Below the pieces are notes generated by a model. That model did not search any database, had not been told where the DNA came from, and saw nothing but the letters and a program-made list of their open reading frames with translations. 64,000 nucleotides of DNA from an uncultured bacterium (GTDB lineage: Bacteria; Cyanobacteriota; Vampirovibrionia; Gastranaerophilales; Gastranaerophilaceae), in contig CACWZA010000005.1 of the NCBI GenBank assembly GCA_902765215.1, forward strand, positions 62,001-126,000. The letters run 5' to 3'. Positions within the stretch are counted from its first letter, which is position 1; each line of letters begins with the position of its first letter. A program made the translations under genes and the position numbers. Shown here in pieces: positions 1,849-47,291 of the stretch.

Positions 1849-4800
1849 ATGCCAAAGAATACTATTACTGTTGACGGTAACTACGCTGCAGCACACGTTG
1901 CGTATGCTTTAAGTGAAGTTTCCGCAATTTACCCAATCACTCCTTCATCTACAATGGGTGAATGGATTGATGAATGGGCATCACAAGGAAAGAAAAATAT
2001 TTGGGGAAAAGAAGTAAAAGTTGCTGAAATGCAATCAGAAGCAGGTGCAGCAGGTGCTGTTCACGGTTCTCTTGCAGCAGGTTCTTTGACTTCAACATAC
2101 ACAGCATCACAAGGTTTATTGCTTATGATTCCTGTTATGCACAAGGCAGCAGGTGAAATGCTTCCGCATGTTATACATGTTTCTGCTCGTGCACTTGCAG
2201 CTCAATCATTGGCAATCTTTGGTGACCACACTGACGTTATGGGCTGCCGTAACACAGGTTATGCAATGCTCGCTGCTAACAGTGTTCAGGAAGAAATGGA
2301 TATGGCTTTAGTTGCACACTTGTCAACTTACAAAGCAAAAGTTCCGTTCTTGCAATTCTTTGATGGGTTCAGAACTTCTCACGAAATTCATAAAATTGAA
2401 GAAATTTCTTATGAAGATATTAAATCTTTAGTAGAACCTAAATATATTGAAGAATTCAGAGCAAGAGCATTAAGACCTGAAGCTCCTGTTTGTAAAGTTG
2501 GTGCACAAAACACTGACGTTTACTTCCAAGGTCGTGAAACAGTTAACAAATACTATGACGCTGTACCTGATATCGTTCAGGAATATATGGACAAGGTTGC
2601 TAAGGTTACAGGTCGTCAATACCATCCGTTCGATTATGTTGGTGCTCCTGATGCTACTGATGTAATCGTTGCTATCGGTTCAGGTTGTGAAACTATTGAA
2701 GAAACAATCAACTACCTCAACTCTACAAGAGGCACAAAATACGGTTTGGTTAAGGTTAGATTATACAGACCGTTCGATGTTAAGAGATTTAATGAAGCAC
2801 TTCCTTCATCAGTTAAGAGAATTGCTGTTCTTGACAGAACAAAAGAACCTGGTTCTATCGGCGAACCTTTATACTTAGATGTTGTTGCTGCATTAGCAGG
2901 TAAAGACATCAGAGTAATCGGCGGCCGTTATGGTTTATCTTCTAAAGAGTTTACACCATCAATGGTTCTCGCTATTTACAAGCACTCTGAAGCAAACGGT
3001 TTCCACGGCTTCACAGTTGGTATTGAAGATGATGTTACTCACAAATCATTACCTATAGATGAACAAATCGTTACAGAACCTGCAGGTACTACAAATTGTA
3101 TGTTCTGGGGCTTAGGTTCAGACGGTACTGTTGGTGCTAACAAAAACTCAATCAAGATTATCGGTCAATATACAGATAAAGATGCTCAGGCATACTTTGC
3201 ATATGACTCTAAAAAATCATTTGGTGTAACCGTATCTCACTTGAGATTTGGTGATCAACACATCAAATCTACATATTTGATTACCGCACCTGATTTCGTA
3301 TCTTGTTCAGCACATGCTTATATCGGAAGATATGACTTGTTGAAAGGTATCAAAGAAGGCGGTACATTCCTGCTTAACTCACCTTGGTCAAAAGAAGAAG
3401 CATTCTCTCATTTGACAAGAGATATGCAGGAAACTATCGTTAACAAGAAGATTAAATTCTACAATGTTAACGCTGAAGAATTGATTAAACAACAACCTGG
3501 CTTACGCGGTAAGGGTGCTAACACAGTTATGATGGTAGCATACTTCAAGGTTTCAGGTATCATACCGTTTGAACAAGCTTTAGAAGGTATGAAAGCTATG
3601 ACAACTAAGACCTTCAAGAAGAAAGGTGATGATGTTGTTAACATGAACCTTGCTCTTATCGATGCTGCAGTTGATGCAACAGAAGAAGTTGTTGTTCCTT
3701 CTTCATTAGACGGTGTTGCTCACGCTGACGAAATTAAATTGATTTCTGACGATGCTGACGATTTCGCTAAGAAGATTATAGAACCTTCAATGAGACAAAA
3801 AGGTGATGATATCCCTGTTTCAGCAATGAGCGTTGACGGTGTTATCCCTACAGGCACAGCTTGTTTGGAAAAACGCGGTATTGCTCCAAGAGTTCCACAC
3901 TGGAATTCGGAAACTTGTGCTCAATGCGGCGTTTGTGCATCTGCTTGTCCTCACGCTGCAATCAGAACTAAGCTGGCTGAAAAGGATAGCTTATCAAATG
4001 CTCCTGCATCATTCAACACAGTTGATGCTAAGCCAAACGCAAACGGCGAACAGTTTAAGGTTCAGGTTTACTGCGAAGATTGTACCGGCTGCGGTGTATG
4101 TTTAGACCAATGTCCTATGAACAAGATTCCTGGTAAAGAAGCATTAACTTGGTCAACTATTGAAAAAGAAGTTGAAGCAGGCGAATTGGTTAACGAAAAA
4201 TACTTTGATGAGTTACCTGATAATGTAATGGGTAAAAACACAATCAAGACAGTTAAAGGCGCTATGTTGAGAAAACCTTTATTTGAATTCTCAGGTGCTT
4301 GTGCAGGTTGTGGTGAAACACCTTATGTTAAACTCGTTTCTCAATTATTCGGGGAAAATGCTATCGTTGCTAACGCAACAGGTTGTTCATCAATCTATTC
4401 GGGTACATTCCCTACAATTCCTTATACTAAGACTAAAGAAGGCAGAGGTCCGGCTTGGGCTAACTCATTGTTCGAAGACAACGCAGAATTTGGTTTTGGT
4501 ATGAGATTAGCAGTAGATGCAAACAGATCAACCCTTAAGACTTATGTTGAAAAGGCAATTGAAAATCCTGATGCACCTGCTGAAATGAAAGACGCATTCA
4601 AGGCTTGTCTTGAACACTGGGATAATTCAAAAACTCCTGAAGCACTTGCTGCTCAAAACAGAGTAAAAGAATTGTTGGCTAAGAAAGACGATTGCGGTTG
4701 TGAAGTATGTGCTAAGATTAAAGAACTTCAAGACTACTTCACAGATAAGTCTATATGGATTATCGGTGGTGACGGTTGGGCTAACGATATCGGTTACGGC

Positions 4801-5443: not shown

Positions 5444-5464
5444 ATTTATATTCGGCGGTAACGG
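5441..5464. repeat. Direct repeat copy of the tRNA-Glu 3' end (distal copy)
   Basis: These 24 bp match 5571-5594 with one mismatch. Bases 5451-5464 (TTCGGCGGTAACGG) equal the reverse complement of the tRNA-Glu 3' end (acceptor strand plus start of the T stem) and its immediate flank. The copy bounds the structured element at 5465-5570 on the side away from the tRNA. Confidence 0.85.
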
Positions 5465-5570
5465 ACTCTGCCGAACAAAACAATTAAGTATTGTTTTGTG
5501 AGAGGTAAGAACCCGCGAGATTTTTTGCAAAAAAATCGAGGGGTTCAATTCCCGAGCAACCCCTCAATGA
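5465..5570. other. Structured element inserted between tRNA-Glu 3'-end repeats
   Basis: This is a short element of about 106 bp. It starts with ACTCTGCCGAA, then a perfect 9-bp hairpin CAAAACAAT-TAAGT-ATTGTTTTG (5476-5498), then TGAGAGGTAAGAACCC. It continues through an A/T hairpin and an 8-bp hairpin GAGGGGTT/AACCCCTC. The head, hairpin loop and tail match the element beside tRNA-Arg (45867-45934), while the stem differs with compensation. No reading frame is apparent. It may be a small RNA, a mobile-element relic or an attachment-site structure; the transcribed strand is unknown. Confidence 0.65.
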
Positions 5571-5582
5571 TTTAATTATATT

Positions 5583-5654
5583 CGGCGGTAACGGGAATTG
5601 AACCCGTGTTTGCAGAATGAGAATCTGCCGTCCTGACCACTAGACGATACCGCT
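5583..5654 (-). tRNA. tRNA-Glu (CTC anticodon)
   Basis: The 72-nt cloverleaf reads on the minus strand. The D arm is GTCT/GGAC. The anticodon stem GCAGA/TCTGC carries loop TTCTCAT with anticodon CTC. The T arm is ACGGG-TTCAATT-CCCGT and the acceptor strand is TACCGCC with discriminator G. CCA is not encoded. Position 1 is A and position 72 is C, so the terminal pair is an A-C mismatch where G-C would be expected. The other six acceptor pairs are good. Confidence 0.9.
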
Positions 5655-5748
5655 GTGTGCCATCATTATACACCAAAAACGAAACTGCATAAATATTTTA
5701 TATCTATGCAGTAAGTTACGTTGAGTGTTAAATCTTTGTTTTAAATGT

Positions 5749-6798: not shown

Positions 6799-7151
6799 AT
6801 TGATAAAGCAGTCGGATAATCGCGCCGGAAATGGTGAGGAAAGTCCGTGCATTCAAGAACAGGGCTCCGGAGAAACTCCGGACGGCGTGAGCCGGTGGAT
6901 AGTGCCACAGAAATGTTAACTTCCGATGGAATACTTTGTGTTCACAGGAGATGGTGCAACGGTGAGGTAAGAGCATCACCAGCGGTATCGAGAGGTACCG
7001 GCTAGGTAAACCCAGCCAGAATGCAAGATTAAATCTAAGGTTAAAGGTTGTTCGCCCACTTAGGAAAAATCGCTAGAGATTGCAAGTAATTGTAATACCA
7101 GACAGATGATTATCGAGAAACAGAACACGGCTTATGAGCTGCTTTATCAAT
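6799..7151 (+). ncRNA. rnpB: RNase P RNA (class A)
   Basis: The catalytic RNA of RNase P, which cuts the 5' leader from pre-tRNAs. The two ends pair to form P1 (ATTGATAAAGCAG with CTGCTTTATCAAT). Conserved blocks are GAGGAAAGTCC near 6836, ACAGAA near 6909, GGTAAACCC near 7005, and the CR-V-like tail AACAGAACACGGCTTATGAGC near 7120-7140. The length of about 353 nt is typical for the ancestral A type. It lies directly after the rplT terminator and has its own terminator. The boundaries are set by P1 and may be a few bases off. Confidence 0.95.
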
Positions 7152-31342: not shown

Positions 31343-34300
31343 ATGGCAGACAAGTTCAAAATTTCTGGGTCGAATACCGGTGATTATTACCAAATAAATA
31401 ACGGTAAAAGAGAATATTTTGATAAAAATGGAAATCCATTGGACCAAAGTGTTTTTCTTGATAGGAATAATGCGCAGATAGACAAAAAAGGTGCAATGCG
31501 TAAGAAAGAAAATCTTTCTCAGAACGGACTTGTAAAACATTATGTAAAAGGTTCAAAAACCGGTAGATATTATACAGTTGATGATAACGGAAATAAAGCT
31601 TATTATGCTGCTGACGGAACTTCTTTAAATGAAACTTACTTTTTAAAAGCTGAAGGAGTTACTAAAAATTCTGCAGGTGAAATTGTAAAAGTAAACAAAA
31701 AGAATGGCACTGCTAAAAATCAGCCAAAACAACAGCAAGAAAAAGAAGTCGGATTTTTAGAAGGACTTTGGGAAAGCACGAAGGGTGCTATAAATGGTGC
31801 ATATAATATTGCAAAGAGTGCTGTTACCGATGATGAAGGTAATTTTGACCTGAAAGCAGGGGCTAAAAAAGTCTGGAAAGCAACAAAGAATGTATTCAGA
31901 GATGAAACAGGAAAGGTATCTTTAAAAGGTGCTTGGCAGGCATTAAAGAGTGCCGGAAAAGGTATTTGGGATTCCGGTGCAAAAATGGTAAAGGGAATGT
32001 TCTGTAATCCTGATGGAAGTTGGGATGCATGGAGCATTGCTAAAGGTGTTGGTACTTTGGCAGCATTCGGTGTTGCTATTTGGTTTGCAGCACCTGTTGT
32101 TGCTGCTGCATTAGGTGTTTCTGCTGCTACTGCCGGAGTTATTGTCGGTACGGCTGCAGCTGCCCCATTAATTATTGAAGGTGCTAATAACTTCTTTAGC
32201 GGTGCAAATAAGGTTATGGATACTGCAGAAGAAGAAGATCTCGTAAAAGCGGGTCAGATGGCAAAAGATGCAGTAAGAGAACAATCAGAAGGTGCAACTG
32301 ATGTCGTTATGGGCGAATTAATGCGTCGTGGTATGGCAAAGGGTGCATCTCATCATGTTAAATCTTATGAAGCTAACCTTGCAAAAACAAGTGCAAAAGT
32401 ATCTTCACAGGGTTTAAAAACAACTTATAAGATAAATGCTCGTTCTCAGGCACTTATAAAAACTTATGTTGATGGTGCTAAATCTGCAGCACAAGTAGTA
32501 AGACATCCTGTTAAAACAGGAAAAGCGATTGGTAAAGGTACGGTAGATTATATTGACAGAACTGTTACAAGAAAGACAAGAAAAGGTTTTTCTGAAAGAA
32601 TAAAAGATTCTTCTCCTGATGAAATGCAGGGATTATTTGAAGAAATTGCGCAAGACGAAGTGATGAAACCGAGTTCAAAAGCGCGTGCATTAAAAGAATT
32701 AGCAGAACGCGCAGAAGAAGAAGGTATGGAAGATTTTGCGAATACTGTCAGAGATCAAATCCAGACTAAAAAATATACACAAATAAATTCTGAAATAGAT
32801 AACCTTGCTACAAGACGCAAATTATTTACAAGAAGAAAAGTGGCAAGAACAGAGGTTCCTGAGGGTAAAGTAGAAAAAATTGAAACAAAAATAGATGCAG
32901 CAGTTGAAAAAGGTCAGATTACCGAAAATCAGGCTGATGCGCTCAGAACTAAATTAGCTGAACAACAAGACGGTATTCGTTCTTATTCAAGAGTTAACGA
33001 ACAACTTTCTGATAAGAAACATACTGTTCAATTAGATGAAGATTTTGATTTGAATATCGAAAATATCAAAAATCCGAAACAAAGAGACAGCTTAATGAAA
33101 AAAGTTGAGGGTTCAAAACTTAGCGTTGAAGAAAAGATGACTGTTCTTCAAAAAATTCTCGATAATTGTGAAAGTGAAGCTGATGTATTAGATTTTAATT
33201 TCCGTGTCCGTTCACGCAAGATGGGGTTGAAATCAAAAGATCAAAGAGCATTACAGCGCTTGGCATACCAAAAATTGCAAACAATAAATCCAAAAAGATA
33301 TAGCGAGATTGACGGACTTGCTCAAATGGTTCGTGATGATGCAAAAGATTTTCAGTCAAAAGCAGATAATTTGGTTGATGCATTGGAAAACAGAGCCGGT
33401 AAAAGACATTGGTGGAATAGAAAACGCGATGTTTCTGATGCGGAAAAAGCTAATGCAAAATACGCACAGGAATACGCAGAACAACATCTTGCTGATGTGA
33501 CAAAAGCGGCACAGGCTGAAAGAACTGCCGAATTCCGTGCGCAGATGGAAAAAGGTAAAGGACTTAAAAAACTTGGTGAGAAAATAAATAAAGCATGTGA
33601 TAATAAAGAAATTACAGAAGCACAACGCGATGCACTTTTAGATGAGTTGCCTAAGGCAAAAGAAAATCTTCAAAGTAAGAAGAATTATGATAAGTTAGCA
33701 AAAAAAGCTGCTAAAACAAAAGATATCCAAGCTACATTTGATGAAATAGAAAATGCGCATGCTAATGGTGATATTACTGCTGAGCAGCGTGTGGAACTGC
33801 TTGATAAATTATCTGAGCGTAAAAATCAGTTGCTTGAAAAATCTCAAAAAGCTAAATTTAATGAATTGAAGAAGAAAGTTAAAAATACTGATGATGTGGA
33901 TGTTACCCGTCAAGAGTTAAGTGATGCTTACATGAATGATGAAATCTCTGATGGTCAGTATGCAGAGTTGAAAAATAAACTTAGTCAGCGAGAAGAAAAA
34001 ATCAATAAAGGCAGAAATGAGGAAGCACCTGAAATAGTTGATGACGAAATCATAGAAGAAGAATTACCTGTGGCTGATATGGAAGTTGAACCGACTGCCC
34101 CTCAAATAGAGAGAGCAGAACAACTCGGGAATATGGCAGACAGAGGTATTACTACTTCTGAAGAATTGTGGAATGAATATCTATCAGACAAAATAACTCA
34201 TAAACAATATATTGATTTGATGGGCAGATTAGACAAAGCAGAAAGAACAATACCCGGAAAAGACCCGATTACAACTGATGAAGCGATAGATAATTTCTTG

Positions 34301-37300
34301 AAAGAAACTGAAAAGACCGAGTCTGAACTCAGAAAAGATACTTATTTTGATGAAAACAATGAGTTATATTCAAGAAGACCTGAATCAGAAGAAGTAATAG
34401 GTGCTGAGGAAATAAAAGCACCAAAAGCAGACGAAGTTGCCCCGAAAGCTGAAGAAGTTGTAGCGAAAGCTGAAGACGAAGTTGTAGCGAAAGTTGAAGA
34501 CGATGTTGTAGCGAAAGCTGAAGATGAAGTTGTAGCGAAAGCTGAAGATGAAGTTGTAGCGAAAGGAGAAGTCGTAGATGAAACTTCAACAGAGGCTGTG
34601 ACAGAAGCACCTGTCGAAACTTCAACCGTTGTTGAGGAACCTGTACCTGAGGTTAAAATTCCTGAACTAACAGAGAAATTAGGTGATGCGCAAACAAAAA
34701 CATTTGAACCAACACTTGATGCTGAGGGAAATTTTGAAACAATCGAGTTTAACGGTAAAAAATTCACGCACAGTGTCGAGCAACACAATAAATATATTGC
34801 AGAAGATGGAACAGAAATGTATCATTCGTCTACATTTAACGACAATTATAGAGCATATACGATAAATAAACCTGGGGAACCAACCAGAATAATTCATGTA
34901 ACTCCTGATAATAATATTTATTGCGAAGTCACTGCAATCAAAGGTCAACATGGAACGATTTATAATAAGAGTGTTTCCTACAATAAAGGTAAAATTAGTG
35001 AAATAAAAGAAACAAATACAACATATAATGAACTTGGTAAGCCTAGCCGTGTTGAGACGATTGAAAAAGATCCGTATGGCGAGAATGGTGCTGCGCGCAT
35101 AGGTACAGAAACCCAAACTTTTGAATACAATGATGCAGGAAAAACAACAAAACGAACAACTCAGACAAAATCGAAATACGGTAATGAATCAACAAATGTT
35201 GAAGATTATCAATATGACCTACAAAATAGACAAACCGGATATCAAGAAACTGTTGATGGAGTTGTGAGAAAACAAATTTCCAATGATTTCACTGATACAA
35301 ACAACCCTAAATTGATAACTCATAAAGTCGAAACAAGATATGATATAAATGGTAAAAATCCGACAGTATCAGAATCAAATATGACTTATGATGCAAAATC
35401 ACGCAGAGCAAGTTATGAATATAAGGTTGATGGTGAAACAAGAGTAAAAGCTAAATATTCTGGTTTTAATGACGAAGGCGGTTATGCTTGGGATGGTGAA
35501 ACAGGCGAAGTATTTTCCAGCCCAAGAATAGTAGAGGTTGAATTACCTCAGGGACATCAGCCATTTGATATACCTAAAGGTACAAATATCAAATATACAC
35601 TTGGTGAAAACGGTAAATATACTAAAGTTGAAATCAACGGTAAATCATATCCTATAGAAGAAGATGGCTCGTTTATATACAAAGATGCTCAATTCTCACA
35701 TGGAAGTTATCCGTTAGAAACTGTAGATAGTCATATTTACATGGATATTTCTTGGGTTAAAAAAGGTACAAAACCAACAATCTTAAAAGAGATTGACGGG
35801 ATAGATGTTGCCCAAAAACCAAAAATTGATACATACAGACAAATTTTTGAAAAATGTAACGATGAAACCTCTCTTGATGCTTTGTCTGCAAAAATAAGAG
35901 AGCATAACGATAAATCAGGTTTGTTTGATACGAACGGTAAGCGTAATGCACTTTTGAAAGAAATCGAAGCTAAGAAACAACAACTCAATACGGTTGAGGT
36001 TAAATTTGAAGGTGAAGCACCTGAACTGTTGTCGCAAGACCCTGTGGCAGAAGGGCTTGCAAGAATTGACAGATTGTCTTCAAAAGAAGATGTTCAAGCT
36101 CTTATGGATAAATGTAAGACTCCGGATGAACTTGTAGCGCTTGATAATAAATTATTTGCTCTCCAAGAAAAGACAGGAAAAAGATTGTCTGATGCTGATA
36201 TAAATGCTTTAAGGTTTGAATGCGACATTAGACAACAAGAGTCTTTTGGTGGATTTAAACGAGTATTCGATGATAACGGTAATGTTGTCAAAATTGAAGC
36301 CAACGGCAAAATGTTTGAACTCAAAGACGGCAAATATGTTGCAGAAGACAATTCAACATTTAAACTCGGTCGCATATCAGAAATAACTGATAGTCAAGGA
36401 AGAGAGATTAATACTTATTATACTACAGGAACGAGTGTTAAATACAGTTACTCAGGTAATAATGTAATTAGAATAGAAGCCAACGCCTTTGAAAAGACAT
36501 ATACATATACAAATGATGTAAAAACCGGAGGAACAATAAAATTTACAGATAAAGCCGATGGTTTTAAAAAAGGAGATTTTGTTGAATTTACTTTAAAAGA
36601 AGACGGAACATTCAAAACAGTAAAAATCAACGGTCAAGATATCCCTGTTAGAGAAGATGGAACATTTATTCTTGATACGGAAAACAGTTATTTTAAAACT
36701 CGGAAATATACATTCGACGATGGTGGAATCTATAGTATAAAAGGTGAAGAAACTACAGAAACCACAACTGTAAAACGCCCTGAACAAAGGGTTAATAATG
36801 GGGTAAATGAGAAACCTGTAGAACCTACTGCCAAAGGTACTTCTCAAATTGAAAATGGAAAATTGAAAGTGGAAAATGATGTTCAGGAAGTAGGTCAGGC
36901 AGTGCCTGACGCTACAGGGGCAAAATCTGAAACAACTTGGGATACATCAAGTCCTGAGGCGCTTGACAGACAACTTGCTGTTCGTTTAAGAAAAATGGAA
37001 AAACAAAAATATGATATGGATGCTTATGAAGCACTCAGAAAAGAAATCATGGAGTTAGATATTGAGGATAATGTAAAATTAGACTTGGTTGACCGACTCG
37101 ACTTGCAAGAAAAATCGCACAGAATCAATCCAGATCCGCAAGCAGAAGTGGTGAAACCTGCACAACCTGCGACTAAGCCTGCAAGACAATATAATATGGA
37201 AGATACTATAGTTTGTGAGTATCGTGTTGGTGAACAAGATATATTTAATACGTCAAAATGTGATCATTATGACTATAGAAATTATAAAGAAGACACTGAA

Positions 37301-40300
37301 TACACATTTAAAGGCGAAAAAAGAACTATAATTGTTGAAAATGCCATTGGCAGCAAACGGTCAAAAGTAACAGACGGATATAGAAATGGTGATGTTATAG
37401 CCGTTGATGTCAAAGGTGAAGTTTCAGCCGCAAAACGTAAAGCTATTCATAAAGCTATGCAAGATGCTGTGACTGATGCTGATATGAAAGCTTTACCTAA
37501 AAAAGTTCAAGATATTATGAACGATAATTCTACTACAACCAAACAAATTAAAGTTGGCGACGAGGTAGTTGATTATGTTGTTGATAGTGACGGATGTTTG
37601 GTCAGTGTTGGTAAAGCAAATCTTCAAGGCAGAAACGATAATTTTACCTTTACTATGTATGGAGATGAATATGTATTTTCAGACGGAACAATTAGATTCT
37701 CTAAAAAAGGTACTCCAAAGACTGAACCTCAACCTGGTGCAGAAGTAGGTCAGGCAGTGTCTGACGCTACAGGGGCAAAACCTGCACAACCAGTGGAAAG
37801 TGTGAAACCTGCACAACCTGCAAGACAATATACTACTAATGATATAAGAATTGGTAAAACCTCTGCAAAATGGGGCGGAAATAGTACTGTTGTCAATCCT
37901 GATCAAGGAATGTTACTTGATATAAGACCAGATGGTCATGGTGGTTTTGATTCCAGCGCAAATGTTACAAATTGGTCACAATACGGCGATTATGTTACCT
38001 TTATGGAAAAAGGTGAAGTAAGAACTGCAATTATACAAGATTTAGGTGAAACCCCATTAGGCAAGACCATGAGCGGTGTTCGTGGTGGCGACAATATAAC
38101 AGTTGCAGTCAAAGATAAAATATCTATTGCTAAATGTAAGCGTATTCATCAAGCAATAAAAGATATTAAAACCGAGGCTGAACTCGAAACATTACCTCAA
38201 AAAGTTAATGAAATATTGAATGATAACTCTACAACCACAAAACAAATTAAAGTCGGTGATACAACATACGATTATGTTGTTGATAGTGACGGGTGTTTAG
38301 TTAAAATTGGGAACGACGAAGTTCCATTTAAAAAAGACAATATTCCTTCCTTTAAGATAGAAGGTGATGAATATACCGAATATTCATATGAAAATGGTGA
38401 AATAAAAATTATTAAAAAAGGCGCTCCGAAAACAGAACCAACAGCACAACAACATGCAGAACAATCTGCAACCGGTGGCACTAAGAAACCTGCTGAAATG
38501 AGTGGCAGTGAGCTAGATGCGGCTTATGAACATTTTGAAACTCAAATTGATGGTAGTGAATATTATTTTAAAGACTGGAAGGATTCAAATGGTATTGTTG
38601 AAACTCGTATCATCCGTAACGGAAAAGTCGTTGAACCAAACGCTGAAGGTATCTACGAAATCAACGGTAAAAAATATACTCTGAAAGACGGTGAGCTGAA
38701 AGATGTTACTGAACAACCGTCACCGGAATTCAAGGCTGATGATGTTGCTCCAAATGAAGGTGAACATATCGGCGGCGAAGTTGAAGATCCTGCACTTATA
38801 CAGGCTAATTTCACAAAAGATGTACAGGCTATTGCTAATGAAACAAATGTAACAAGATTAAAGAATCTTAAATCAGAAATAGATACCTCGGACGGGTTCA
38901 AAGACTATTCTTCTGAACAAAAACAAGCACTCAAACAAGCAGTGGCAGACAGAATTGATGAAATACAGGAAAGAAACTATCAATCCTTAGAGGAAAGAAT
39001 TGCTAATGCAGAGACAGAAGAACAGGTTGATGCAATATATGAAGACCAAGTTGAATTATGGAAAAATGATGAAATAAACAGCAACCAATCAATCGAATTA
39101 ACCAAAAAACGACAAGCAAAAATAGATGAAATCAATAATAAATCAACAGCAGAACCAGTAGAAATACCTGAACTTGACGAATTGTTTAGTGTAAGAACTG
39201 AAGATATGTATGTTCATAATATCGGATTGAAGGAAGGTAAATTGGTTCAATTTGATGGTGAACTACTTTCAAAACCTGTGGCTGACGGTGAAACATTTAC
39301 TTTCAAGGGTAAAGAATACAAGTTTGAGAACCGTGGAATTAAAGAGGTAAAAGCAGAAGAAGCTGTTTCTTCCGAAACTCCTGTACCTACCCGTGACGAT
39401 TTGGCAGCAGAAGAAAGTATAAATATAACCTCAGATTTTGATAAGATTGCAGACGAAACTGCCTATAAGACAATGGAAAACCGTATTAAGAACTCAACTG
39501 TTCTTAATGACACTGAAAAAGCAGATTTGTTGGCTCTTTTAGAGCGTGAAAAAGGCGGTTTTAAACCTGCTGAAAGAGTATCTGTAGCTGACGATATTGC
39601 AAAATCTGATGTTGATGGAGCAGTAAGAGAACAAACATTAGGTGATAAAGCAAAATCTTTATTAGGTGCTACAATTATTAAACCTTTTAAAGTTGCAGGG
39701 TTTGTAGCTGCTGCAAATGAGATGGGAAATTTAATACCTGATAACAATGGTGTTGATGAACAATTGCCGATAGCAGATGATGTAGTATCAGAAGAGATTA
39801 CAGATACCGATGATGAAACAGTAATTTCTGACGAACTTATTGAACGAGGCGATGAAACTGAAGAAGTTGATAACGATTCATCTGCTAATGAAAAATCTGA
39901 AGATGATTACAAGCAGGAAATCGAAGGAGCTCAAACTCAGGATGAGCTGGATAATATAGAAAAAGCGATTGAAAATAGTAATTTGTCAGATTCGGTAAAA
40001 GATCAAATTAGAGCATTGATTGAGGCAAGACGTAAGGCGCTTGAAGCAGAAAACAATGCTGCTGACAACGCTACAACTGTTGCAGTTGGTGACGAAACAG
40101 TTACTGTTTCAAAAGCCGGTGATAAGACAGTTGTTAAAGATAGTAATGGTAATGAAATAAAACAAAATAATGATGGTACATATACAATTGGCGGTAAAAA
40201 ATACAATTATCGTGACGGTAAATTCACTCCTGTTCAAGATAATAGTTCTTCAGGCAGCGGTAATAGCGGAGTAACACAAGACAAAGTAAAAAAACAAGTA

Positions 40301-40921
40301 CAACGGGATGACGCTCCTGTATTAAAAGGTTACTTTGCTCATCCGATTAAAGCAAAAGGAAAAGGTCAAGAAATTACCCACAAGCAGGTTACCGACTTTG
40401 TAAATGCAATTAAACAAGCAACAACAGAAGAAGAATTGAATCAAATTTTGTTAGATGTTCGTGAGTTCAAAATGTTTAAGGGCCGTAAACAGTTAAGATC
40501 TGCAATTAAAGCACGTAAAAAGGAATTAGCTTCATCTGATGATGCTTACAAAGCTAAAAAACATGATAAAGCAGAACGCAAATTAGATGTTGCTCATGAG
40601 CGTTATGATTATTCTCAATATAAGAAAACGGGTGAAGCACCTGACGGACACGCTGTTTATAAACAACCAAATCTGTTCCAGAGATACATATTAGGTAAAA
40701 AGGAACACATAAAAGTCAATGATGGAACAACAGAACAAAAATCTGAAAACAATCAGGTTCTGTTTGATGATAGTATCCCTGAAATTGACTCTGCTACTCA
40801 AGAGAAATTGAAAAATTTCACCAATGATGTCGGAAAACCTGATTTAGCTGATTCATCTCAGAATGTTGATGAAAACGAAGTAAAACGCACATTTGATATT
40901 GATGATAATTTCTTCGGATAA
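31343..40921 (+). CDS. Giant modular repeat protein (3192 aa), lineage-specific
   Basis: A single uninterrupted frame; function unknown. Residues 4-118 hold two copies of a 50-residue tyrosine-rich repeat (SGSNTGDYY and KGSKTGRYY). Residues 134-300 contain repeated D-E-x-G modules and a hydrophobic Ala/Val hairpin (about 236-280) shared with the proteins at 11603 and 14325. Residues 300-1000 carry SHOCT-like helical hairpins. An 8-residue repeat (EVVAKAED) lies at about 1038-1075. YD/RHS-like beta repeats follow (about 1120-1375), then several FNGKxY...DG modules. A domain of about 210 residues is duplicated (1936-2135 and 2145-2362). It has no signal peptide, transmembrane C-terminus or recognisable toxin domain. 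A very large secreted or surface protein using a non-classical route is the most economical guess. The ATG has AAAGGAAG upstream. Confidence 0.85.
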   Translation: MADKFKISGSNTGDYYQINNGKREYFDKNGNPLDQSVFLDRNNAQIDKKGAMRKKENLSQNGLVKHYVKGSKTGRYYTVDDNGNKAYYAADGTSLNETYFLKAEGVTKNSAGEIVKVNKKNGTAKNQPKQQQEKEVGFLEGLWESTKGAINGAYNIAKSAVTDDEGNFDLKAGAKKVWKATKNVFRDETGKVSLKGAWQALKSAGKGIWDSGAKMVKGMFCNPDGSWDAWSIAKGVGTLAAFGVAIWFAAPVVAAALGVSAATAGVIVGTAAAAPLIIEGANNFFSGANKVMDTAEEEDLVKAGQMAKDAVREQSEGATDVVMGELMRRGMAKGASHHVKSYEANLAKTSAKVSSQGLKTTYKINARSQALIKTYVDGAKSAAQVVRHPVKTGKAIGKGTVDYIDRTVTRKTRKGFSERIKDSSPDEMQGLFEEIAQDEVMKPSSKARALKELAERAEEEGMEDFANTVRDQIQTKKYTQINSEIDNLATRRKLFTRRKVARTEVPEGKVEKIETKIDAAVEKGQITENQADALRTKLAEQQDGIRSYSRVNEQLSDKKHTVQLDEDFDLNIENIKNPKQRDSLMKKVEGSKLSVEEKMTVLQKILDNCESEADVLDFNFRVRSRKMGLKSKDQRALQRLAYQKLQTINPKRYSEIDGLAQMVRDDAKDFQSKADNLVDALENRAGKRHWWNRKRDVSDAEKANAKYAQEYAEQHLADVTKAAQAERTAEFRAQMEKGKGLKKLGEKINKACDNKEITEAQRDALLDELPKAKENLQSKKNYDKLAKKAAKTKDIQATFDEIENAHANGDITAEQRVELLDKLSERKNQLLEKSQKAKFNELKKKVKNTDDVDVTRQELSDAYMNDEISDGQYAELKNKLSQREEKINKGRNEEAPEIVDDEIIEEELPVADMEVEPTAPQIERAEQLGNMADRGITTSEELWNEYLSDKITHKQYIDLMGRLDKAERTIPGKDPITTDEAIDNFLKETEKTESELRKDTYFDENNELYSRRPESEEVIGAEEIKAPKADEVAPKAEEVVAKAEDEVVAKVEDDVVAKAEDEVVAKAEDEVVAKGEVVDETSTEAVTEAPVETSTVVEEPVPEVKIPELTEKLGDAQTKTFEPTLDAEGNFETIEFNGKKFTHSVEQHNKYIAEDGTEMYHSSTFNDNYRAYTINKPGEPTRIIHVTPDNNIYCEVTAIKGQHGTIYNKSVSYNKGKISEIKETNTTYNELGKPSRVETIEKDPYGENGAARIGTETQTFEYNDAGKTTKRTTQTKSKYGNESTNVEDYQYDLQNRQTGYQETVDGVVRKQISNDFTDTNNPKLITHKVETRYDINGKNPTVSESNMTYDAKSRRASYEYKVDGETRVKAKYSGFNDEGGYAWDGETGEVFSSPRIVEVELPQGHQPFDIPKGTNIKYTLGENGKYTKVEINGKSYPIEEDGSFIYKDAQFSHGSYPLETVDSHIYMDISWVKKGTKPTILKEIDGIDVAQKPKIDTYRQIFEKCNDETSLDALSAKIREHNDKSGLFDTNGKRNALLKEIEAKKQQLNTVEVKFEGEAPELLSQDPVAEGLARIDRLSSKEDVQALMDKCKTPDELVALDNKLFALQEKTGKRLSDADINALRFECDIRQQESFGGFKRVFDDNGNVVKIEANGKMFELKDGKYVAEDNSTFKLGRISEITDSQGREINTYYTTGTSVKYSYSGNNVIRIEANAFEKTYTYTNDVKTGGTIKFTDKADGFKKGDFVEFTLKEDGTFKTVKINGQDIPVREDGTFILDTENSYFKTRKYTFDDGGIYSIKGEETTETTTVKRPEQRVNNGVNEKPVEPTAKGTSQIENGKLKVENDVQEVGQAVPDATGAKSETTWDTSSPEALDRQLAVRLRKMEKQKYDMDAYEALRKEIMELDIEDNVKLDLVDRLDLQEKSHRINPDPQAEVVKPAQPATKPARQYNMEDTIVCEYRVGEQDIFNTSKCDHYDYRNYKEDTEYTFKGEKRTIIVENAIGSKRSKVTDGYRNGDVIAVDVKGEVSAAKRKAIHKAMQDAVTDADMKALPKKVQDIMNDNSTTTKQIKVGDEVVDYVVDSDGCLVSVGKANLQGRNDNFTFTMYGDEYVFSDGTIRFSKKGTPKTEPQPGAEVGQAVSDATGAKPAQPVESVKPAQPARQYTTNDIRIGKTSAKWGGNSTVVNPDQGMLLDIRPDGHGGFDSSANVTNWSQYGDYVTFMEKGEVRTAIIQDLGETPLGKTMSGVRGGDNITVAVKDKISIAKCKRIHQAIKDIKTEAELETLPQKVNEILNDNSTTTKQIKVGDTTYDYVVDSDGCLVKIGNDEVPFKKDNIPSFKIEGDEYTEYSYENGEIKIIKKGAPKTEPTAQQHAEQSATGGTKKPAEMSGSELDAAYEHFETQIDGSEYYFKDWKDSNGIVETRIIRNGKVVEPNAEGIYEINGKKYTLKDGELKDVTEQPSPEFKADDVAPNEGEHIGGEVEDPALIQANFTKDVQAIANETNVTRLKNLKSEIDTSDGFKDYSSEQKQALKQAVADRIDEIQERNYQSLEERIANAETEEQVDAIYEDQVELWKNDEINSNQSIELTKKRQAKIDEINNKSTAEPVEIPELDELFSVRTEDMYVHNIGLKEGKLVQFDGELLSKPVADGETFTFKGKEYKFENRGIKEVKAEEAVSSETPVPTRDDLAAEESINITSDFDKIADETAYKTMENRIKNSTVLNDTEKADLLALLEREKGGFKPAERVSVADDIAKSDVDGAVREQTLGDKAKSLLGATIIKPFKVAGFVAAANEMGNLIPDNNGVDEQLPIADDVVSEEITDTDDETVISDELIERGDETEEVDNDSSANEKSEDDYKQEIEGAQTQDELDNIEKAIENSNLSDSVKDQIRALIEARRKALEAENNAADNATTVAVGDETVTVSKAGDKTVVKDSNGNEIKQNNDGTYTIGGKKYNYRDGKFTPVQDNSSSGSGNSGVTQDKVKKQVQRDDAPVLKGYFAHPIKAKGKGQEITHKQVTDFVNAIKQATTEEELNQILLDVREFKMFKGRKQLRSAIKARKKELASSDDAYKAKKHDKAERKLDVAHERYDYSQYKKTGEAPDGHAVYKQPNLFQRYILGKKEHIKVNDGTTEQKSENNQVLFDDSIPEIDSATQEKLKNFTNDVGKPDLADSSQNVDENEVKRTFDIDDNFFG
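34454..34567 (+). repeat. 24-bp tandem repeat encoding EVVAKAED
   Basis: Four full copies and one partial copy of a 24-bp unit (GAAGTTGTAGCGAAAGCT followed by GAAGAC or GAAGAT), within the giant gene. The copies differ by one to three bases, so the expansion is recent. The antisense frames over this block are low-complexity shadows. Confidence 0.9.
36887..36925 (+). repeat. 39-bp in-frame palindromic repeat, copy 1
   Basis: Contains the palindrome GTCAGGCAGTGCCTGAC and encodes EVGQAVPDATGAK inside the giant protein. It is directly preceded by an AT-rich stretch encoding QIENGKLKVEN. Copy 2 is at 37742-37780 with one base changed. Confidence 0.8.
37742..37780 (+). repeat. 39-bp in-frame palindromic repeat, copy 2
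   Basis: Matches 36887-36925 at 38 of 39 bases; the single change (C to T) breaks the palindrome. It lies at the junction of the two tandem domain copies of the giant protein. Confidence 0.8.
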
Positions 40922-44399: not shown

Positions 44400-45635
44400 A
44401 TGGATGGAATAAATCACAGCTATCGACATGGCCGACACGGGGCTGATATGCGAATGGATCAGCTTGAAAGTTTTAAAGCCAATAACTATGTTATTGATAT
44501 TTTTAACAATGGTGGCGGCATCTCTTATAGTGGACCTTCTAAAACAGAGCAAATATTAGGAGGTTTATTCCAGGCCGCAGGGATTGGTTTAGAGCTTTAT
44601 GCTATGTCTAAGTGTTATGCTGCTCCTACTACCGGTGGTGGCGGTGGCGCAGGTGCTGCTGCCATGGGTTCTGCCGTTAATACTAAAATTCAGGCTCAGG
44701 CAACAATTGATATGATTGATGCTGAGCTAAAGGTAAAAGAAGCTGAACTTAAAGAAATTAATGAAGGCACTCAAGAAGCACAGTTAAAGAAAGATTTAGA
44801 AGCTTTGAATCAGTCTGCAGGTTTAGATAAGGCTGCGACAGAAGACCCTGATAATGTAAAACTGCTTGCTGAAGCAAGAACTGAGTTGGCAAATATTAAG
44901 GCTGATAAAGCATCTATTCAGTCACTTGATACACAAATTTCAGGTTTATCAATGACAACGATTACCGGTCAGACTTTGAAGCCTGGTGATAGTATTGATG
45001 AGTCAAAATATAACCCTGGGAAATTAAAGTCTGGCGATGCTGGTTATGATGCTATTCAGCAAAATATAAATGCCGATAAAGCAAAATTAGCTGATTTAAA
45101 TGAGCAAGATAAAAAATTAAAAGAAGATAAAGCAGCAATAGAAAAGAAATATGCTAATGGTATTGAGGCAGCAGAGGCGAAAGCTAAAGAGAATATAGAG
45201 ACACTTGAAGCTAAAAATGCAAATTCAAAAAGTGCTGATTGTAAAATATCATCAAAAGAATATGAAACCAAAAAAGCAGAAATACAGAAGAAAATAGCAA
45301 CGCTTGAATCTAAAAAGTCCGGTAAAGAAACTTTAGAAACTTATATTAAAAGTCTGAAGCAACAAAGGGTGAAAGCCGAAACTTTAATTGTTCAGGCAAA
45401 TGCATCGTTAAGCGGTATTAAAGCAACACAAGCTGAGATACAAAAGACAGATAATGAAATAGATAATTTGCAGGCAACAAAGAAAACGACCAAAAAGTAC
45501 AAGGATGATGGTACTAAACGAAACATGTGGCAGCGTTTCTGGGGAACAGGAAAGTCACAATATACAAAGAATCTTGAACAGCAAATTGCAGATAAAAAAG
45601 ATTACCGAAACGGATTATCCGGTGGTTATTCATAA
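44400..45635 (+). CDS. Lineage-specific coiled-coil protein with Gly-rich hydrophobic head
   Basis: 411 residues from ATG 44400, chosen for AAGGAG 9 nt upstream; an earlier ATG at 44370 is less good. The first 40 residues are polar and rich in His, Arg and Asn. Residues 55-90 are hydrophobic and glycine-rich (ILGGLFQAAGIGLELYAM, then a run of Gly before AGAAAMG). From about 100 to 390 it is a continuous coiled coil rich in Lys, Glu, Ala and Asp with heptad spacing. The C-terminus is basic (MWQRFWGTGKSQYTK). I do not recognise a family. Secretion-apparatus substrates and phage-like tail or tape proteins can look similar, but no partner genes are present. Confidence 0.8.
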   Translation: MDGINHSYRHGRHGADMRMDQLESFKANNYVIDIFNNGGGISYSGPSKTEQILGGLFQAAGIGLELYAMSKCYAAPTTGGGGGAGAAAMGSAVNTKIQAQATIDMIDAELKVKEAELKEINEGTQEAQLKKDLEALNQSAGLDKAATEDPDNVKLLAEARTELANIKADKASIQSLDTQISGLSMTTITGQTLKPGDSIDESKYNPGKLKSGDAGYDAIQQNINADKAKLADLNEQDKKLKEDKAAIEKKYANGIEAAEAKAKENIETLEAKNANSKSADCKISSKEYETKKAEIQKKIATLESKKSGKETLETYIKSLKQQRVKAETLIVQANASLSGIKATQAEIQKTDNEIDNLQATKKTTKKYKDDGTKRNMWQRFWGTGKSQYTKNLEQQIADKKDYRNGLSGGYS

Positions 45636-45668
45636 AAAAAAGACTTCTGAAAAGAAGTCTTTTTTTTT
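45634..45668 (+). terminator. Intrinsic terminator of the coiled-coil gene, copy of the tRNA-Arg terminator
   Basis: AAAAAGACTTCT-GAAA-AGAAGTCTTTTT. The same stem recurs at 45939-45968 beside tRNA-Arg, so the terminator and the tRNA 3' end appear to have been duplicated together. Confidence 0.85.
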
Positions 45669-45672
45669 GTAA

Positions 45673-45697
45673 TTTTTATTAAAAAACACGCCCAGAG
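45673..45697. repeat. Direct repeat of the tRNA-Arg 3' end (distal copy)
   Basis: 25 bp identical to 45963-45987. The last 11 (CACGCCCAGAG) are the reverse complement of the tRNA-Arg 3' end; the rest is the flank. It bounds the structured element at 45698-45855. Confidence 0.88.
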
Positions 45698-45855
45698 AAG
45701 GACTCCGTTGGCGGACAGCAAAAGGTGACTAAATGTCACGTTTTGCGTAGATATATGCTAAATCTTGCGGGAAAGAGTAAGCCAATGGAGGGGAGAACCC
45801 TTGGGTGAGAATCCTGAAAATAATAAAAGAGGCATCTCGTGATGCCTCTTTTATT
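45698..45855. other. Structured element A beside tRNA-Arg
   Basis: No reading frame. It starts GGACTC. The outer stem is CTCCGTTGGC/GCCAATGGAG and the inner hairpin is GCAAAAGGTGAC-TAAAT-GTCACGTTTTGC with one mismatch. The tail GGAGAACCCTTGGGTGAGAATCC is related to that of element B. It ends with its own terminator hairpin AAAAGAGGCATC-TCGT-GATGCCTCTTTT (45825-45852). It looks like a complete small RNA unit on the plus strand, with anti-tRNA sequence at its 5' end, but transcription is unproven. Confidence 0.6.
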
Positions 45856-45866
45856 CACGCCCAGAG
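45856..45866. repeat. Direct repeat of the tRNA-Arg 3' end (middle copy)
   Basis: CACGCCCAGAG, identical to the 3' end of tRNA-Arg in reverse complement, preceded by TTTTATT as in the other copies but without the A6 run. Confidence 0.85.
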
Positions 45867-45935
45867 ACTCTGCCGAAGAAAAAGATTGAGTATCTTTTTC
45901 TGAGAGGTAGAACCCCCGAGGGGGTGAGAATCCAA
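45867..45935. other. Structured element B beside tRNA-Arg
   Basis: Begins ACTCTGCCGAA, then the perfect 9-bp hairpin GAAAAAGAT-TGAGT-ATCTTTTTC (45878-45900), then TGAGAGGTAGAACCC and a CCCCCGAGGGGG hairpin before GTGAGAATCC. Head, loop and tail match the element beside tRNA-Glu, with compensatory changes in the stem. It is followed by a terminator hairpin at 45939-45968. Confidence 0.65.
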
Positions 45936-45938
45936 AAT

Positions 45939-45968
45939 AAAAAGACTTCTCTAAAAGAAGTCTTTTTA
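45939..45968. terminator. Terminator between element B and tRNA-Arg
   Basis: AAAAAGACTTCT-CTAA-AAGAAGTCTTTTT. Symmetric, so it can end tRNA-Arg transcription on the minus strand and any element transcript on the plus strand. Confidence 0.85.
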
Positions 45969-45976
45969 TTAAAAAA

Positions 45977-46050
45977 CACGCCCAGAGGGATTCGAACCCC
46001 CGACCTCTTGGTTCGTAGCCAAACGCTCTATCCAGCTGGGCTATGGGCGC
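45977..46050 (-). tRNA. tRNA-Arg (ACG anticodon)
   Basis: A 74-nt cloverleaf. The acceptor GCGCCCA/TGGGCGT has a G-U first pair and discriminator G. The anticodon stem TTTGG/CCAAG carries loop CTACGAA with anticodon ACG (read as ICG). The T arm is CGGGG-GTTCGAATCC. CCA is not encoded. The 3' terminal 11 bases are duplicated twice on the downstream side. Confidence 0.95.
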
Positions 46051-46121
46051 GTATTTCTTTTTGTATAACTATGTTATCAATAACATAATGTTTTTTCAAT
46101 ACCCGATTTGTAAATTAGGTA

Positions 46122-47291
46122 TTAGTCCTCTTTTTGTTTAAAATGTTCAACCAATTCCTGAAGTTTTGATTTATGATGCTCAACTTTTTCTGTTATTTGC
46201 GGATTTAATTTTGAAATATTAACATCTATAAGCCCCTTTGATTCGTTATAAAGGCTTTCTCTTACATCAGGCAGAGTGAGGGCAATATCACTTAATCCGC
46301 CTCTGTTGATTTTTGATATAAGTTCATCCATATATCTTTGTGTTTGTTTTGGAATATTAGGATATCTTTCAATCATTTCATCAAGCGGAGTTGAGCTTCT
46401 GTAGTTGTTCATTCTCTTGCTGGCTGCAAGGTAATTTGCCCCTTTGCTTTCGCCTCTTTCTGATGACGGCTTAATATGTTCAATTGAAATCTGTGACGGG
46501 CTGACTAAAAGTTCTGCAATTTCTTCCTGTGTTTTGTCTGCGTATTTTACAATAAATGCATCTGCACTTGTTGCTGTGTTTGGAAAATCGTGGCTCAGTT
46601 TGATAATATGGTCAACTGCCGCTTTATTTGGGATATCGTTGTATAACCCTCTGAGCATTTCTATTGATTTTTTGATTCTGAATTGGTCATTGCAAATATC
46701 ATTATTGATTATTTCTAAGTATCTGCCTACGCATTTTTGTTCGTCTTTTGTAAGATTTTTTTGAGCATAATCTCTTATGTTATCTGTTACATTGAATTGG
46801 TTATTTATCAGTCTTGCTTTGGCTATTGGCAGATTTTCCTGTAATATGTCTGTATATGTAAGTCCGTTTGCTGTGCCGTTTTTCTTTGCATCATGGACTG
46901 CGTGTCTGAGCAGATTAAACACTTCTGTTTCTGACGGGAACATGTGTTCTGTGTAGCCATTCATCAAGTTATTCATTGATTCTGCGGAGCTTCTTTTGTT
47001 AATTTTGCCTTGAAGATGTCTGAATTTCTTTTGAGATATCATTATAACATCGCTGTACGGATCGTGAAGTCCGTCGATATTTTTCAGCGTTTCTTCAATC
47101 TTTTTGGACTCTTTTCGGTTAGTTTTTTTACCTGCAAAAACAGGTGCGGTCATTGTGTTCTCACTCTTCTCAAATTTATCGCAGCGAAGGTCATTGGCGA
47201 ATGCTATGCGATTTCCAATAAAATAATTGTTATGGATAGGGGTACTTGTATTGTAAAGTGTCCTAAAATTGTTGTTGATTGATATTTCCAT
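46122..47291 (-). CDS. HNH-like protein with lineage-specific N-terminus
   Basis: 389 residues. The N-terminus is Asn/Thr-rich and ends in APVFAGKK, as in other unusual genes here. Residues 65-270 are helical and unknown. Around residue 275 lies ISIEHIKPSSERGESKGAN, continuing to LAASKRMNNYRSSTPLDE. The spacing of His, Asn and Asn is that of HNH/His-Me endonuclease motifs (H-I-x-P, N-x-L, N). No zinc-binding cysteines are present. A DNase is therefore possible, but the rest of the protein is not a known restriction enzyme or toxin. No immunity gene is obvious. The site TGTAACAAAT lies 56 nt upstream (47347-47356). Confidence 0.75.
   Translation of the reverse strand: MEISINNNFRTLYNTSTPIHNNYFIGNRIAFANDLRCDKFEKSENTMTAPVFAGKKTNRKESKKIEETLKNIDGLHDPYSDVIMISQKKFRHLQGKINKRSSAESMNNLMNGYTEHMFPSETEVFNLLRHAVHDAKKNGTANGLTYTDILQENLPIAKARLINNQFNVTDNIRDYAQKNLTKDEQKCVGRYLEIINNDICNDQFRIKKSIEMLRGLYNDIPNKAAVDHIIKLSHDFPNTATSADAFIVKYADKTQEEIAELLVSPSQISIEHIKPSSERGESKGANYLAASKRMNNYRSSTPLDEMIERYPNIPKQTQRYMDELISKINRGGLSDIALTLPDVRESLYNESKGLIDVNISKLNPQITEKVEHHKSKLQELVEHFKQKED

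Follow-up and report, generated by a model that had tools for sequence, protein, structure and literature searches.

The stretch of DNA analysed here (hereafter the window) is 64,000 nt long and carries an intact tRNA-Arg(ACG) gene on its minus strand, beside which two structured units, A and B, lie in tandem; a second B unit adjoins a tRNA-Glu gene elsewhere in the window. The features on which the analysis rests are the following, with no strand given for terminator-type hairpins:

5464-5507, plus strand: second B unit of the window, seated in copied tRNA-Glu 3′-end sequence and laid out as at tRNA-Arg (covariance model R1, 70.4 bits, E 2.5e-14)
5582-5655, minus strand: tRNA-Glu(CTC) adjoining that unit (tRNA search)
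45634-45667: outermost terminator-type hairpin, GACTTCT/AGAAGTC, a diverged copy of the terminator of tRNA-Arg itself (repeat and inverted-repeat search)
45673-45697, plus strand: outer direct repeat, trailer plus reverse-complemented tRNA 3′ end, TTTTTATTAAAAAACACGCCCAGAG (direct-repeat match)
45698-45791, plus strand: core A, AAGGACTCCGTTGGC ... hairpin GCAAAA-(GGTGACTAAATGTCACG)-TTTTGC ... GCCAATGGAGG (sequence, fold and copies)
45703-45712 pairing with 45781-45790, plus strand: outer stem of core A (predicted fold)
45792-45814, plus strand: tail of unit A, GGAGAACCC TT GGGTGAGAATCC, a fold-back derived from the T-arm (direct-repeat match, tRNA comparison)
45822-45855: perfect terminator-type hairpin separating units A and B (inverted repeat)
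45856-45866, plus strand: middle one of the three reverse complements of the tRNA 3′ end, CACGCCCAGAG (11-mer search)
45867-45907, plus strand: core B, A-CTCTGCCGA-(10-bp variable hairpin)-GAGAGG (model R1, 68.0 bits, E 9.8e-14)
45908-45933, plus strand: tail of unit B, TAGAACCCCC GA GGGGGTGAGAATCC, a fold-back derived from the T-arm (tRNA comparison)
45936-45970: tRNA-proximal terminator-type hairpin (inverted repeat)
45963-45987, plus strand: inner copy of the 25-bp direct repeat, continuing into the intact tRNA-Arg (direct-repeat match)
45976-46051, minus strand: intact tRNA-Arg(ACG); the repeated segments derive from its 3′ end (ARAGORN; Rfam tRNA, 58.9 bits)

The window also contains a class A RNase P RNA (6804-7150) and an ORF of 3192 aa without a Pfam match (31343-40921).

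Since tRNA-Arg(ACG) lies on the minus strand, its 3′ end appears on the plus strand as the reverse complement. The 11-mer CACGCCCAGAG occurs at 45687-45697, 45856-45866 and 45977-45987, against a chance expectation of 0 in 100 shuffles of the window. The outer copies have exactly 25 bp in common and are each preceded by a perfect 15-bp GACTTCT/AGAAGTC hairpin, and the middle copy is preceded by the different hairpin at 45822-45855. Folded as plus-strand RNA, element A has a z of -5.6 and element B one of -3.8. Both elements fold as DNA too (z -4.9 for A, -3.4 for B), and also as minus-strand RNA (z -3.0 for A, -2.0 for B). All this agrees with the initial annotation, which had described the three copies, the shared 25 bp, the stem before both outer copies, the two structured elements between them and a unit layout of anti-tRNA end, structured body and terminator. 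It had also read each unit as the gene of a short RNA that could pair with the tRNA 3′ end, and for this part no support was found. The anti-tRNA segment of unit A is predicted to form a closing stem with the tail, the fold being completed by the core arm and a small hairpin, and in the predicted plus-strand fold of unit B this segment is likewise paired internally. A consensus scan of 45500-46200 found no promoter on the plus strand and two promoter-like sites, both on the minus strand. Apart from the tRNA, no Rfam family scored above its gathering threshold over A and B; a sub-threshold match to MCS4 (38.9 bits, gathering score 56) was discarded as reflecting no more than a terminator shape in common.

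A search of the genome of origin with window positions 45640-46052 returned 25 matches, both A-like and B-like, many of them adjoining other tRNAs. Core B takes the form A-CTCTGCCGA, a variable hairpin with a loop that is usually TAAGT or TGAGT, and then GAGAGG. The exact pattern was found 27 times in this genome vs 0 for a reversed control, and in all eight genomes of the genus, the matches at C24:27809 of the same genome and C5:37479 of G004 having no hairpin and looking like chance matches within coding sequence. Among 89 distinct cores the consensus is ACTCTGCCGA ... GAGAGG, commonly followed by TA, and ACTCTGCCGA is exact in 87 of them. A permissive search of 23 loci, chosen partly for strong matches, yielded 44 matches scoring over 41 bits, with nothing in the range of 25.1 to 41 bits. 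For core A, 16 distinct full copies were matched in the sequence set; the six inner stem pairs are standard in 16/16, and G-C/T-A and G-C/A-T pair exchanges are seen.

The covariance model R1 detected core B in 139 of the 146 genomes of the family and in 38 of its 41 genera, with 1 to 43 matches listed per positive genome and none in the other seven. In relatives, both bodies recur as conserved structured elements, which is what the initial annotation had required of its reading. In a sample of the phylum, 108 of 244 genomes matched R1, all from the same family but one, which belongs to another family of the order; there were no matches in the five members of the class outside the order or in the rest of the sample. 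Where names were specific, matches with a hairpin in a named contig collection mostly came from Candidatus Gastranaerophilales. Core A is rarer than B: its exact signature is present in 12/146 genomes, which is an upper figure, since the pattern also matches inside coding sequence in other genomes. No match to window positions 45640-45975 was found in the phage and plasmid record collections. A search of papers available without subscription for repeats and tRNA genes in Gastranaerophilales or Melainabacteria found no account of the family. A and B are members of a family of small hairpin repeats of the order Gastranaerophilales that is apparently undescribed.

To describe how the cores are seated we used loci fetched by pattern or by model, which are not a random sample. 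Pattern matches with an unpaired inner part were removed ahead of counting, six loci (L081, L089, L095, L110, L130 and L150) were dropped as chance matches, viral-contig loci were left out except for L278, and near-duplicates were collapsed from 283 to 141 distinct units. These comprise (i) 47 D-type units, in which B lies near the D-loop, within 5′-end sequence copied in sense from the tRNA immediately downstream, (ii) 19 T-type units, in which, as at tRNA-Arg, a reverse-complemented tRNA 3′ end carries B near the T-loop, (iii) 9 units near a tRNA but unmatched and (iv) 66 units without a tRNA nearby. In the matched units B faces the intact tRNA by construction of the test; among 59 units near a tRNA for which orientation was not required, the tRNA lay downstream in 52.

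The graft is regular. Upstream of the core, the unit matches the tRNA and its flank with no net loss over a median of 18 (D-type) or 20 (T-type) bases, and in 34 of the 47 D-type units the match stops at tRNA base 11 or 12; the downstream match is short. Of the 57 D- and T-type units with a scorable downstream match (9 of the 66 had a weak one and were left out), 51 have the core in place of exactly 5 or 6 tRNA bases; the remaining values are -1 (three units), 3, 4 and 9. At the window's tRNA-Arg, core B stands in for six bases of the tRNA copy, positions 59-64. In T-type units the tail folds back on the unit's tRNA segment, of which it is an inverted copy, and a fold-back tRNA copy beat 50 of 50 shuffles in 9/19 T-type and 16/47 D-type units. 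Direct repeats of at least 10 bases across the two sides occur in 45/47 D-type, 16/19 T-type and 18/65 tRNA-free units. One unit of genome G141 uses what by eye is a tmRNA-like 3′ end. Two sequence details accompany these units: D-type units repeat a TTGAAAATTAAATA-like leader motif, which we take to be boxA-like, 5′ of each tRNA fragment, and T-type tails (e.g., window 45803-45814 and 45922-45933) read GGGTGAGAATCC vs the tRNA's GGGTTCGAATCC, a change that recurs in units at Ser, Arg and Met loci and could give tandem G.A pairs.

The units also differ between genomes in a way that suggests turnover. Intact tRNA-Arg(ACG) was found in six genomes of the genus (in G002 the search gave a weak match only, in G007 none), and full A and B units follow it only in the genome of the window: within 380 bases downstream there is no unit in G001, G003, G004 and G005 and a tail-like remnant in G006, in a comparison made without shown synteny. 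In G003, whose tRNA-Arg end differs, a unit on another contig (L439), with no tRNA nearby, has the complement of the end found in that species. Genome G141 holds at least 20 near-identical B cores, mostly dispersed in unrelated flanks, and most of them belong to units closed by a CCCTCCCC/GGGGTGGGG stem. On one phage contig, L278, a unit (3446-3494) lies in a structural-gene spacer between two copies of GAGCAATAATA, which form 11-bp direct repeats, an observation from this single contig; the neighbouring ORFs read as tail and terminase-like, and the related L488 has a short spacer without the unit at the matching place. Among the matches listed for a loose pattern on viral contigs, only L278 had acceptable B flanks and context by eye, and two stricter patterns, which the loop of L278 would itself fail, gave 0. 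No sign of targeting by replication strand was seen, tRNA-free units showing no bias (23 on the G-rich vs 20 on the C-rich strand) by local GC skew, which is weak here. Several other nested palindromic repeats, such as CCCTCTCCC..GGGAGAGGG around GAATTTCTTAG hairpins, also crowd intergenic regions of G141 (L355-L374), by eye with a three-way shape.

In order to judge whether the hairpin is kept as a DNA-level palindrome or as RNA, the pairs of the B stem were compared. In an alignment of 28 cores, covariation is seen at every one of the 10 stem pairs: 71 cells are changed on both sides and 1 on one side only. The B stems contain 1.6% G-U and 1.2% A-C pairs. For terminator-like stems from these genomes the shares are 7.4% and 0.3%, the G-U share being inflated because G-U pairs were accepted when these stems were picked. 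The lack of a G-U/A-C asymmetry in a covarying stem favours a DNA-level palindrome. Selection of an RNA strand was not sustained: uncorrected folding favoured the sense strand 94 to 47, and after shuffle correction the preference was kept only in D-type units. The corrected sense-minus-antisense differences of the flanks were -0.4 ± 0.8 for T-type and +0.5 ± 0.4 for tRNA-free units, neither clearly nonzero, and -1.41 ± 0.56 for D-type units, a slight sense advantage that may only reflect their sense tRNA sequence. Template switching is described as making or repairing the arms of a hairpin in one step (PMC8794818). Such a process would explain double changes without intermediates and also the fold-back tails.

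The search for an enzyme gave no candidate. A Y1 transposase match was present in 5/8 genomes of the genus vs 8/8 for B, and eight fetched Y1 loci contained no intact B, only two loose two-mismatch pattern matches without the core. That B is the REP of the host's Y1 transposase was rejected, the Y1 gene of the window's genome being flanked by a separate GTAG repeat with no B near; at L319 (G000:C30:2114-2473) a RAYT-like Y1 gene is flanked by hairpins of a distinct REP family, which read GTAGGGTGCGATGTTTCGCACC or its complement. Reverse transcriptase was rejected as the motor as well, with matches in 3/8 genomes of the genus and none in G006, which has 27 R1 matches. No recombinase could be tied to the units. 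As a separate observation, tRNA-Asp genes with A units adjoin a retron-type reverse transcriptase at L496 11691-14149 (G000:C1) and L497 4900-6487 (G007:C71); the one in G000 (290 aa, PADLOC RT_II-A) is preceded by a DnaB-like helicase gene, and about 3 kb away G000 has a second reverse transcriptase, this one in fusion with SLFN_AlbA_2 (597 aa).

We favour the reading, to which we give a probability of roughly 0.48, that A and B represent two cores within a single new, lineage-specific family of small palindromic DNA modules, mobile or propagating and similar in kind to REP, REPIN and RPE. The core would occupy one arm of a self-complementary copy of a tRNA gene end, displacing 5-6 tRNA bases, so that the folded single strand would consist of a closing stem, the arm with the core and another hairpin arm. 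The real tRNA would be kept intact because its gene end and terminator (or leader) are duplicated, and the units would then multiply in tandem. The modules may propagate as folded single-stranded DNA recognised by some enzyme, and their stems may be renewed by template switching. The anti-tRNA sequence would be a by-product of the target, lying inside the copied tRNA end, and it is better explained by this seat than by pairing with the tRNA. Several points count against mobile modules: the search gave no enzyme, D-type flanks have a slight sense advantage in folding, orientation follows neither replication strand, the G-U share of the terminator control is inflated, the 11-bp direct repeats come from one phage contig, and selfish repeats should leave decayed copies, yet the B core is near-invariant. 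The near absence of decayed copies leaves room for a functional role, and either each copy is in use or turnover is rapid. It is possible, if rather doubtful, that A and B are folding elements of a new class built from host tRNA and tmRNA gene ends, with the core grafted by replacement of 5-6 bases into a fold-back copy of the adjoining gene. Active use of the folded strand, whether DNA or RNA, would then protect them from decay; the strand might serve in recombination or transposition, for instance, or act as an RNA scaffolded on a tRNA.

The main rival to mobile DNA modules is a role as transcribed RNA. Here the units would be structured non-coding RNA genes that have taken over tRNA ends as scaffolds and promoters, with a core that binds a protein or acts as RNA, ACTCTGCCGA/GAGAGG with its possible tandem G.A pairs being kink-turn-like. 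The near-invariant core with hardly any decayed copies, the strong predicted RNA folds on the strand of B and the duplication, seen by eye, of the tRNA leader, a likely promoter place, in D-type units all speak for such genes. We nevertheless consider them unlikely, given the double stem changes with almost no intermediates and the lack of G-U/A-C asymmetry, the failure to find a plus-strand promoter in this region of the window, the variation from 0 to 43 copies between genomes and the lack of a tRNA near about half of the distinct units. The narrower proposal of the initial annotation, a gene for a short antisense RNA that would pair through its 5′ segment with the 3′ end of tRNA-Arg, can point to the exact 11-base complement in both units and to the G003 unit, matched to its own species' tRNA-Arg. 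It shares the missing plus-strand promoter and the even stem composition; moreover, the anti-tRNA segment is taken up inside the predicted folds, 47 of the 66 tRNA-matched units carry sense sequence of the 5′ half instead, and 66 of the 141 units lie away from any tRNA. It therefore appears very improbable.

Two further explanations start from integration. Were the units folded single-strand recombination sites of the attC kind, the fold-back tRNA end would recreate a double-stranded tyrosine-recombinase site, the core arm would be extrahelical and the 5-6 replaced bases would correspond to the overlap. The constancy of the replacement (51/57), the inverted tRNA copies flanking the replaced segment and the fixed motif beside a variable palindrome fit this scheme, but no recombinase is linked to the units, no cassette-like cargo is seen between them and a placement in D-loops, which to our knowledge are not usual integrase sites, would be unusual. 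We judge it improbable, even though tRNA ends are given as usual targets of recombinases (PMC4383910). Least probable of all, and disfavoured by the conserved core, are ordinary attL/attR-type tRNA-fragment scars of integrated elements combined with chance hairpins. Integration is known to leave displaced tRNA fragments next to intact tRNA genes (PMC4383910, PMC9897764); however, the offset of the 16-base core is constant across copies of many tRNAs and of both gene ends, the same core is found in non-tRNA palindromes as well, and there is no cargo.

If the family is as described, it would represent an order-wide palindromic repeat of common gut bacteria whose home is the tRNA gene. The regular graft of one core in place of 5-6 bases, at D-loops, T-loops and some anticodon arms, is striking. 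If the reading is true, these loci would provide many natural replicates of how small hairpins are copied without an obvious transposase, and would also bear on whether the moving form is folded single-stranded DNA or RNA. A caution follows for annotation: where 'anti-tRNA' sequence lies next to a tRNA gene, it may have arisen as a by-product of an insertion target and need not be a regulatory RNA.

Several known systems resemble the family in part. Rickettsia palindromic elements (RPE) are palindromic modules inserted within genes, RNA genes included; B too is a palindromic module in (copied) tRNA gene sequence, but its lineage is unrelated and the module sits in a truncated copy beside an intact host tRNA. 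The attC sites of integrons work as a folded strand and combine a conserved motif with a variable terminal hairpin, a combination also found in B, to which neither integrase nor cassettes are linked and in which attC core sequences are not seen. Genomic islands that target tRNA genes leave a displaced tRNA fragment adjoining the intact gene (PMC4383910), as do the B units, which in contrast are about 80-200 bp long and gene-free, use both 5′ and 3′ fragments and have a common core. Template-switch hairpins share with B the multi-base compensatory changes made in one event (PMC8794818); template switching is, however, a mechanism of mutation and not an element family, and it would cover only the renewal of the stems and perhaps the fold-back tails. 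REP and REPIN sequences, according to PMC3116915, are short extragenic hairpins in many dispersed copies, apparently mobilised in trans. B resembles that description in its fixed motif beside a variable palindrome and in its high-copy, dispersed, extragenic occurrence. It differs in that the 89 distinct cores have no fixed GTAG/CGTC tag at the foot of the hairpin, no RAYT (Y1) gene lies near, and the units are seated in tRNA gene fragments with 5-6 bases replaced. The B family is thus best filed as a relative of REP/REPIN and RPE in kind, not by membership.
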